Assembly (NCBI GenBank): GCA_013041785.1
Contig: JABDRK010000213.1
Coordinates: 1-11,017, forward strand
Source of the DNA: Eudoraea sp.
GTDB lineage: Bacteria; Bacteroidota; Bacteroidia; Flavobacteriales; Flavobacteriaceae
Length of the DNA stretch: 11,017 nucleotides
Direction of reading: 5' to 3'
Below the pieces are notes generated by a model. It did not search any database. It worked only from the letters and a program-made list of their open reading frames with translations, and had not been told where the DNA came from. Shown piece by piece: positions 10,319 through 11,017 of this stretch (the stretch's first letter is position 1; every line of letters starts with the position of its first letter). The position numbers and the translations under genes were made by a program.

Positions 10319-10645
10319 ATGAAAACGGAGGAACTCCGGGAACTCCTGGAGGCTGAGATCAGCAAGACCGAAAAAAAGATAGCCCGTTATGAGGAGATGA
10401 CAGGGCCAGTTGCTCCTGACAATGCTATTGGTCGTGTTTCCCGCATGGATGCCATCAACAATAAGAGTGTGATGGATGCCGCCCTTAGAAAGGCAAGGCA
10501 AAGCCTGCAAGGACTACACAACCATTTAAATAAATTGGGAACCCCGGAATTTGGCAGCTGTGTAAAATGTGGACAAAATATCCCGATTCAACGTATTTTA
10601 TTAGCTCCAGAAAGTAGTTTTTGCGTAAATTGCGCCCGCAAATAG
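10319..10645 (+). CDS. Short TraR/DksA-family zinc-finger protein
   Basis: Protein of 108 residues, shorter than E. coli DksA (151). An N-terminal charged helical hairpin (about 1-70, KTEELRELLEAEISKTEKKI and VMDAALRKARQSLQGLHNHL) is followed by a zinc finger of the form C-x2-C-x17-C-x2-C with C81, C84, C102 and C105. Between the helices lies APDNAIGRVSRMDAINNK, where DksA has its DxxDxA tip; that motif is not present in the same form. Family knowledge suggests binding in the RNA polymerase secondary channel and modulation of initiation, but whether this short type does so is inference. It probably shares a transcript with the YqeY gene five bases upstream. The ATG at 10319 gives the expected N-terminal helix. 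Confidence 0.85.
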   Translation: MKTEELRELLEAEISKTEKKIARYEEMTGPVAPDNAIGRVSRMDAINNKSVMDAALRKARQSLQGLHNHLNKLGTPEFGSCVKCGQNIPIQRILLAPESSFCVNCARK

Positions 10646-10648
10646 GCA

Positions 10649-10657
10649 GGCCGCGTA
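10649..10657 (+). repeat. Duplicated tRNA-Arg 5' fragment, part 1 (tRNA positions 1-9)
   Basis: GGCCGCGTA here is identical to the first nine bases of the tRNA-Arg gene at 10977-10985. It lies four bases after the stop of the TraR/DksA-like gene. Alone a 9-mer match would be weak. It matters because the next 11 tRNA bases resume at 10697, exactly where the intervening palindromic element ends. Confidence 0.75.
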
Positions 10658-10696
10658 CCCGCCCGAACGTACCTACGGCAGTTCGGTACGGGCGGG
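10658..10696. repeat. 39-bp palindromic miniature element inside the tRNA fragment copy
   Basis: The element begins CCCGCCCG and ends CGGGCGGG, perfect 8-bp inverted termini. Its ends coincide with the break between the two pieces of the duplicated tRNA 5' end. Inside are two further complementary pairs, GAAC (10665-10668) with GTTC (10681-10684) and GTACC (10669-10673) with GGTAC (10685-10689). Their order crosses, so they are alternatives or could form a pseudoknot. It is very GC-rich compared with its surroundings. It could be a REP-like or MITE-like repeat. It may also slow transcription after the upstream gene, although no T-tract follows. Confidence 0.75.
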
Positions 10697-10707
10697 GTTC
10701 AACTGGA
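10697..10707 (+). repeat. Duplicated tRNA-Arg 5' fragment, part 2 (tRNA positions 10-20)
   Basis: GTTCAACTGGA here is identical to 10986-10996, the bases of the tRNA-Arg gene that directly follow the nine matched by part 1. The match stops after this point. Together the two parts form a 20-bp direct repeat that flanks the GIY-YIG gene. Confidence 0.8.
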
Positions 10708-10741
10708 GCTGTTAGATTGGATTGATTTAGGATTGGGGAGA

Positions 10742-10999
10742 GTGCATTGGGTGTATTTAATTTATAGTGAAGGGTATAACCGATACTATGTTGGCCTGAG
10801 CAATTCTCCTAATAGAAGATTAAAAGAACATAACATCGGGAAAACCAAATCCACAAGACCATATCGTCCATGGATTTTGGTACATTCCGAAGGGTTTTCT
10901 ACCTTCGCCGAGGCTCGAAAACGAGAAAAATATTTGAAGTCTGCCGCTGGCAGGCGATGGCGTAAAGTAAATATAAGGCCGCGTAGTTCAACTGGATAG
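10742..10999 (+). CDS. GIY-YIG family nuclease, 3' end overlapping tRNA-Arg
   Basis: Small single-domain protein (85 residues from the GTG at 10742) of the GIY-YIG nuclease superfamily, resembling the YhbQ/UPF0213-type proteins. VYLIYS (4-9) and YYVGLS (15-20) stand for the GIY and YIG strands. Arginines R25-R26 in NRRLKEH and E62 in EARKREKYLKS sit at the expected catalytic Arg and metal-binding Glu. After KVNI the frame enters the tRNA gene: the last residues RPRSSTG and the TAG stop come from tRNA positions 1-23. The natural C-terminal helix may therefore be shortened. The start is uncertain; TTG 10733 (three residues longer) or GTG 10751 are alternatives, and there is no ATG. The GGGGAG before 10742 could serve as a ribosome site but is very close. 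Activity is not shown. Confidence 0.82.
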   Translation: MHWVYLIYSEGYNRYYVGLSNSPNRRLKEHNIGKTKSTRPYRPWILVHSEGFSTFAEARKREKYLKSAAGRRWRKVNIRPRSSTG

Positions 11000-11017
11000 A
11001 ATATCAGATTTCGGCTC
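10977..11017 (+). tRNA. tRNA-Arg (anticodon UCG), 3' part outside the window
   Basis: The first 41 bases fit a tRNA. The acceptor 5' strand is GGCCGCG, followed by T8 and A9. The D-stem is GTTC/GAAT with A14 and G18-G19 in the loop. The anticodon stem is TCAGA, pairing with a 3' strand of which only TC is in the window. The loop is TTTCGGC, giving anticodon TCG at 11011-11013, an arginine tRNA for CGN codons. The window ends within the anticodon stem, so the T-arm and acceptor 3' strand cannot be checked. The GIY-YIG frame covers its first 23 bases. Confidence 0.85.

Follow-up and report, generated by a model that had tools for sequence, protein, structure and literature searches.

The unit at positions 10649–10976 of the window, the whole 11,017-nt stretch of DNA analysed here, is probably (about three chances in four) a small chromosomal mobile element of the homing type, whose one gene encodes a minimal GIY-YIG nuclease apparently directed at tRNA genes; we infer its cutting and movement from sequence. 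Across many families within a single bacterial phylum, units of this kind occupy indispensable genes. Since empty, single and tandem states coexist within a genus, the invasion of an essential target by a homing gene without the death of its host becomes directly testable. A search of the open-licence PMC literature found no description of such elements in Bacteroidota, and subscription papers or preprints could contain one.

The window is one entire contig of a source genome that is 87.85% complete. Its right end carries yqeY and a TraR/DksA-type gene, both assigned by Pfam, and the genes further upstream read as mraY to ftsZ from their translations. The TraR/DksA-type zinc-finger gene occupies 10319–10645 on the forward strand (PF01258, 3.5e-9) and is the left neighbour of tRNA-Arg(tcg) in near relatives. 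Immediately beyond it lies the broken tRNA copy in two forward-strand pieces, tRNA positions 1–9 (GGCCGCGTA, 10649–10657, an exact match to the tRNA start at 10977) and tRNA positions 10–20 (GTTCAACTGGA, 10697–10707, also exact). The two pieces are separated, between tRNA positions 9 and 10, by a 39-bp imperfect palindrome (10658–10696; minimum free energy −21.1 kcal/mol), a hairpin element of which the sole CCCGCCCG..CGGGCGGG match in the source genome is this single copy; some relatives carry inserts at the same 9/10 place. The GIY-YIG stretch of 269 nt (10708–10976) fills the space between the broken copy and the tRNA, and the first 41 nt of tRNA-Arg(TCG) (10977–11017, forward strand) end the contig. 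These 41 nt are identical to the beginning of an intact tRNA-Arg(tcg) in a same-genus genome (L036, on the contig of L006, genome G126). ARAGORN made no tRNA call on the window, the tRNA being cut at the contig end at 11017, and since the contig stops inside the tRNA, additional units past its end are possible.

The preliminary description of this DNA had proposed a split copy of the tRNA 5' end, in order and exact, with a palindrome as the separator of its pieces and a repeat flanking a 269-bp nuclease unit; the coordinates and letters, the 39-nt imperfect palindrome and the 269 nt of 10708–10976 were all confirmed. Within the window, the ordered pair GGCCGCGTA..GTTCAACTGGA at a spacing of 0–60 nt occurs only in this copy and in the tRNA itself. 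When the letters of the 350 nt preceding the tRNA were shuffled 20000 times, the ordered pair never appeared (0 of 20000), which rules out a chance origin of the split copy. The window's broken copy is unrecognisable beyond tRNA position 20 and looks like the remnant of a longer one, because the clear copies in relatives reach at least tRNA position 27 in 37 of 38 cases.

The nuclease ORF (10733–10999, forward strand) matches PF01541 at 1.2e-16. It opens with TTG at 10733 and closes with the TAG at 10997–10999, inside the tRNA; from comparison with relatives, the GTG at 10742 seems the likelier start. The catalytic Y, YxG, R, H, E and K are retained in 93–94 of the 94 relatives' domains, so that the conserved residues and the Pfam match together mark the catalytic domain of a family to which homing endonucleases belong, although the GIY-YIG domain occurs in repair nucleases too. 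Structure prediction gives one GIY-YIG domain with high confidence (mean pLDDT 96.4). The nearest solved proteins by sequence are UPF0213 (1zg2, 1.8e-13) and an SLX1 homolog (7wme, 8.7e-8); by fold they are likewise UPF0213 and Slx1, and I-TevI is remote. Models of phage homing endonucleases gave weak matches, at best 3.9e-4 for TIGR01453, which is below its cut-off, and 9.8e-4 for PHROGs, and the window's own protein matched neither in the same comparisons. A single-protein query, which reaches close relatives only, found no relative in viral contigs, and a query of the same reach matched 2 of 50,697 phage records, both Staphylococcus at 41.8% identity. Within that close-relative reach, this near-absence disfavours a phage vector.

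The window nuclease was used as the query against 199 genomes of the family, of which 115 matched. Loci were taken from the matches listed, blind to tRNAs, with nine places left out, and 10 overlapping loci were removed before counting; L035 is the same place as L133. The 102 non-overlapping loci among the matches listed hold 155 GIY domain hits. In class A, a same-strand tRNA starts at most 150 nt after the GIY domain; in class B, a same-strand tRNA ends at most 260 nt before it, both limits having been chosen after a first inspection of the loci. Among the matches listed, class A comprises 45 and class B 33 of the 102 loci; 78 of 102 thus adjoin a same-strand tRNA, against 0 of 65 TraR/DksA control loci (L050–L114). 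The remaining 24 of these 102 have no tRNA call inside the set distances. The window itself falls in this group, as its tRNA is truncated. Several more are located at contig ends or next to fragments of tRNA, and in some, L177 and L182 for instance, nothing clear is visible.

The same arrangement extends beyond the family. The nuclease matched 168 of 295 genomes in a class sample, where 23 of 27 further loci from other families, taken as best-scoring hits, lie beside a tRNA (one locus, L274, belongs to both classes A and B, hence 23 distinct loci); among these best-scoring hits the copy stands more than 5 points above 6 shuffles in 20 of 23. In a phylum sample, 82 of 148 genomes matched, all 21 loci from other classes adjoin a tRNA and 15 of the 21 have a copy more than 5 points above 10 shuffles, these again being best-scoring hits. 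Neither sample of loci was a random draw. The units occur at many tRNA types, and the earlier proposal that the same layout would be met at other tRNA genes is borne out at many of them.

In class A, a copy of the 5' part of the resident tRNA precedes the first nuclease. It was counted as clear where it scored more than 5 points above the best of 20 shuffles, as it does in 38 of 45 loci. The clear copies begin at tRNA base 1 in 35 of 38 loci and end at tRNA positions 27–40 in 29 of 38, and the mean identity of class A copies to the resident tRNA is 98%. The tRNA of the resident amino acid fits the copy better than the tRNA of any other amino acid in the set compared in 36 of 38. In class B, the mirror arrangement, a 3' part of the tRNA follows the nuclease, is clear in 26 of 33 loci and often extends past the tRNA end; its breaks fall mostly in the anticodon or T arm, as judged by eye. 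On sequence grounds, the broken copy is a derivative of the resident tRNA. In 7 of 45 class A and 7 of 33 class B loci no clear copy was found; some cassettes therefore have no duplicate that can be recognised. The proposal of an insertion that duplicates part of the tRNA is supported overall, these 7 and 7 loci speaking against it. Its narrower form, a 20-bp duplication of the 5' part, describes the window; elsewhere the copies are longer, and the mirror form duplicates the 3' part.

Hairpin inserts are frequent inside the broken copies. In 40 of the 45 class A loci, inserts of 12–60 nt interrupt the copy. Among these 56 inserts, 31, spread over 26 class A loci, are strict hairpins, in that they fold better than 99 or more out of 100 shuffled versions of the same insert. 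A looser rule is satisfied in 38 of 45 loci, yet 498 of 1120 shuffled inserts pass it too, so the strict count alone stands. The strict hairpins lie at tRNA positions 21–24 in 16 loci and at positions 8–11 in 8 loci, and 26 of the 31 sequences are distinct. Both favoured sites read TA|G in many of these tRNAs (by eye). Meanwhile, palindromes of the same kinds are present away from tRNAs. In L246 (1490–2160, G174:C12), tandem tRNA-Leu-like copies each carry two hairpins, one in the D-arm and one in the T-arm, and no GIY ORF is present in the stretch read; in L251 (1479–1562, G011:C15), a single palindrome sits within a tRNA-Leu-like stretch. Given the palindromes away from tRNAs and the scarred tRNA-Leu without GIY, the hairpins are not exclusive to the nuclease element. 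Random invasion by palindromes is nevertheless disfavoured as a full account, because strict hairpins cluster at few positions and their type tracks the nuclease lineage.

The latter relationship was examined on a nuclease tree of 94 labelled loci with stop-free domains of at least 60 residues (72 columns), 45 of the 91 inner branches of which are drawn open. The label of class plus amino acid changes 29 times on this tree, against a shuffled mean of 65.9, and 0 of 200 shuffles were as low; the class A Leu and class B Met groups span several families. Such a linkage between nuclease and tRNA type could partly reflect vertical descent at orthologous loci. For 37 loci typed by hand, the hairpin type changes 6 times, compared with 11–17 times in 200 shuffles, and for the Arg loci taken alone, 2 changes were counted against at least 5 in shuffles. 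Furthermore, two hairpin types are carried by 4 of the 8 genomes with at least two typed loci. From these change counts and the presence of two types in one genome, the hairpin type follows the nuclease lineage more than the host genome. Related nucleases reside in Arg, Ala, Met and Leu tRNA genes, and we infer that target switches happened, the dead copy then being taken from the new resident tRNA.

At the locus of the window itself, relatives whose TraR/DksA protein is 62–73% identical have tRNA-Arg(tcg) next to it in most cases. As had been predicted for an empty site, 11 relatives (L037–L040, L043–L046, L049, L008 and L009) carry the TraR/DksA match followed after 6–54 nt by one intact tRNA-Arg(tcg). 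Fragments already lying at such sites would have spoken against insertion; in the nine gaps scored, no tRNA fragment stands above shuffles (0 of 9; the gaps of L008 and L009, outside these nine, are 9 and 6 nt long). Partly filled states were recognised by eye in other relatives: a scarred 5' copy with an apparent nuclease start at the contig end in L041, a scarred copy with an apparent decayed nuclease in L042, a scarred copy from which the nuclease is absent in L047, and shorter remains in L048 and in the same-genus L036, where GGCCGCGTA is followed by CCCGC as in the window. In L035 (3321–4010), one intact tRNA-Arg has element traces on both sides, the order being scarred 5' copy, tRNA, nuclease and scarred 3' copy. 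In L152 (577–1374), a single tRNA-Arg is preceded by a 5'-type array and followed by a GIY fragment. In L049, L128 and L151, fragments ending in tRNA 3'-end sequence lie downstream of the tRNA, and in L043 tandem repeats do so; no nuclease gene is present in the stretches seen of these four.

Units also form arrays. In 13 class A loci the last two units share 93–100% identity; eight nuclease domains are found in L144 and four in L150, and a contig of G405 has ten hits spaced 457 bp apart. In one genus of seven genomes, a single locus is empty in G593, holds one unit in G590 and three in G198, each unit being 307 bp, and element-less alleles at the same locus, a property of homing endonucleases, are thereby found. 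The left flanks of these three alleles share 71–93% identity and the right flanks 67–86%, and the motif TAnnTTTG, which we take to be the Bacteroidota −7 element, precedes the first tRNA-like start by 60, 60 and 59 nt in G593, G590 and G198, respectively. In the filled alleles, the broken copy occupies the tRNA's exact place behind this promoter-like motif. A second promoter type, for which the upstream genes differ and the comparison covers the promoter region only, is followed after 20 nt by the start of the tRNA in G591, G592 and G595; G594 has the start of the dead copy at this distance and the tRNA 308 nt further on. Of the 38 class A loci with clear copies, 21 have TAnnTTTG at most 60 nt upstream of the copy; on the reverse strand the count is 1. 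The array of G198 (L281) has an upstream flank common to G590 and G593, and a stretch of 246 nt that begins just ahead of the tRNA shares 98.8% identity with another tRNA-Arg(acg) locus, in G595 (L282), a likeness that suggests recombination across tRNA genes.

These features can be assembled into a provisional mechanism. The nuclease would cut a tRNA gene in the D-arm or anticodon region, and repair would then insert the nuclease gene and, along with it, another copy of whichever tRNA part would otherwise be destroyed; this second part may be a target duplication or may be imported by the element. In the form seen in the window, the old 5' end would remain upstream as a dead copy, with the intact tRNA downstream; in the mirror form, the intact tRNA would lie upstream and the dead 3' part downstream. 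If the nuclease cut the intact tRNA gene, it would attack its own host. The hairpins probably prevent the dead copy from functioning as a tRNA, being cut as a target or offering a perfect repeat through which the unit could be lost precisely. Arrays would arise when the intact tRNA is cut again beside the homologous dead copy and recombination adds units. In the 5' form, the dead copy, the nuclease and the tRNA probably make up one transcript, because the dead copy often stands behind the tRNA's own promoter-like motif. A more elaborate version, which we regard as rather doubtful, would make these units, of about 300 bp and phylum-wide, two-part elements in which a tRNA-specific GIY-YIG nuclease is paired with a cognate hairpin at the tRNA-fold joints 9|10 and 22|23; this Slx1-like nuclease would recognise a cruciform or the tRNA gene in folded form instead of plain sequence, duplicate the invaded part and disable the spare with the hairpin.

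The preliminary description had also offered a decayed tandem tRNA, meaning that a duplication came first, that the nuclease gene settled between the copies later and that one copy then decayed. Long copies at tRNA-Pro and a few other genes (L156, L197, L160 and L327), two ARAGORN-called tRNAs around the GIY domain in L274 and the GIY-less scarred tRNA-Leu tandem of L246 agree with such a history. Its weakness is that the upstream copies mostly end at tRNA positions 27–40, that the empty relatives examined have one tRNA at the locus and never two, and that a neutral duplicate gives no reason why a 5' part should lie before the GIY gene and a 3' part after it. As a general account it is therefore unlikely, and it keeps a place at some tRNA-Pro loci (L156 and L197).

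A service to the host, for example the regulation of the tRNA transcript or the amplification of the tRNA gene under stress or phage attack, would fit the physical coupling of tRNA and nuclease, which is visible in the motif upstream of the copy (21 of 38 against 1) and in the nuclease stop inside the tRNA (28 of 45). Amplification driven by SegB also helps phage T6 against Septu, according to excerpts of a published account (PMC13096335). A parasite that is gained and lost is nevertheless the better fit to the patchy presence within one genus, to the decayed remnants recognised by eye (L036, L042, L047 and L048) and to the many tRNA types, and domestication is very unlikely. The homing-type element remains the preferred reading.

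A practical consequence concerns annotation, since the nuclease frame runs into the tRNA and stops inside it in 28 of the 45 class A loci. In 23 of those 28 frames, the stop ends at tRNA base 10 or 23, near the hairpin places in the dead copies.

Several known systems resemble the unit in part. A group I intron is rejected: no self-splicing RNA interrupts a functional tRNA here, the window has no Rfam match at gathering scores and the relatives keep an uninterrupted tRNA. Integrase-type elements insert in a tRNA gene and keep the tRNA whole by carrying a piece of it, and like them the Bacteroidota units leave the tRNA gene whole. They differ in having no integrase, a single small nuclease ORF and a duplicated piece broken by inserts; the 328-bp window unit has only the GIY ORF on its coding strand, and the 307-bp units elsewhere are without an integrase because they are too short for one. 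The UPF0213 and Slx1 GIY-YIG nucleases, the closest solved relatives of the window nuclease by sequence and fold, share its minimal GIY-YIG fold. Slx1 is a structure-specific nuclease of branched DNA, and to our knowledge residence in tRNA genes is not a feature of either family.

The units can be regarded as a chromosomal counterpart of phage SegB. Excerpts of the published accounts describe SegB of T-even phages as a free-standing GIY-YIG homing endonuclease in phage tRNA regions (PMC13096335, PMC2988022) that cuts inside tRNA genes with the preferred motif RAWTSGAAC, and whose nuclease activity is required for tandem amplification of segB with tRNA-Tyr (PMC13096335). As far as these excerpts go, SegB and the Bacteroidota units have in common a GIY-YIG nuclease adjoining tRNA genes of many types. 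SegB is phage-borne; by contrast, the Bacteroidota units are chromosomal and about 300 bp long, with the catalytic domain forming nearly the whole protein. A partial tRNA copy, rebuilding of the tRNA and a hairpin scar, all present in the Bacteroidota units, are not mentioned in the excerpted SegB accounts.

Simultaneously, the units form a bacterial parallel to the gene-repairing endonuclease ORFs (mORFs) of fungal mitochondria. According to excerpts of the published description, mORFs carry with them an additional copy of the end of atp6, atp9, cox2 or nad3, and the native gene end is left behind, unexpressed in two of four cases (PMC3630166). Both kinds of element thus place an endonuclease gene in a host gene along with a second copy of a gene end, a combination of ORF and second host-gene part found in 38 of 45 class A and 26 of 33 class B loci. 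On the same excerpts, the mORFs concern the 3' end of mitochondrial protein genes, whereas the Bacteroidota units concern either end of tRNA genes. Furthermore, the inserted end of a mORF is diverged and probably foreign, in contrast to the class A copies, whose mean identity of 98% to the resident tRNA sets them apart from an inserted copy of that diverged kind.
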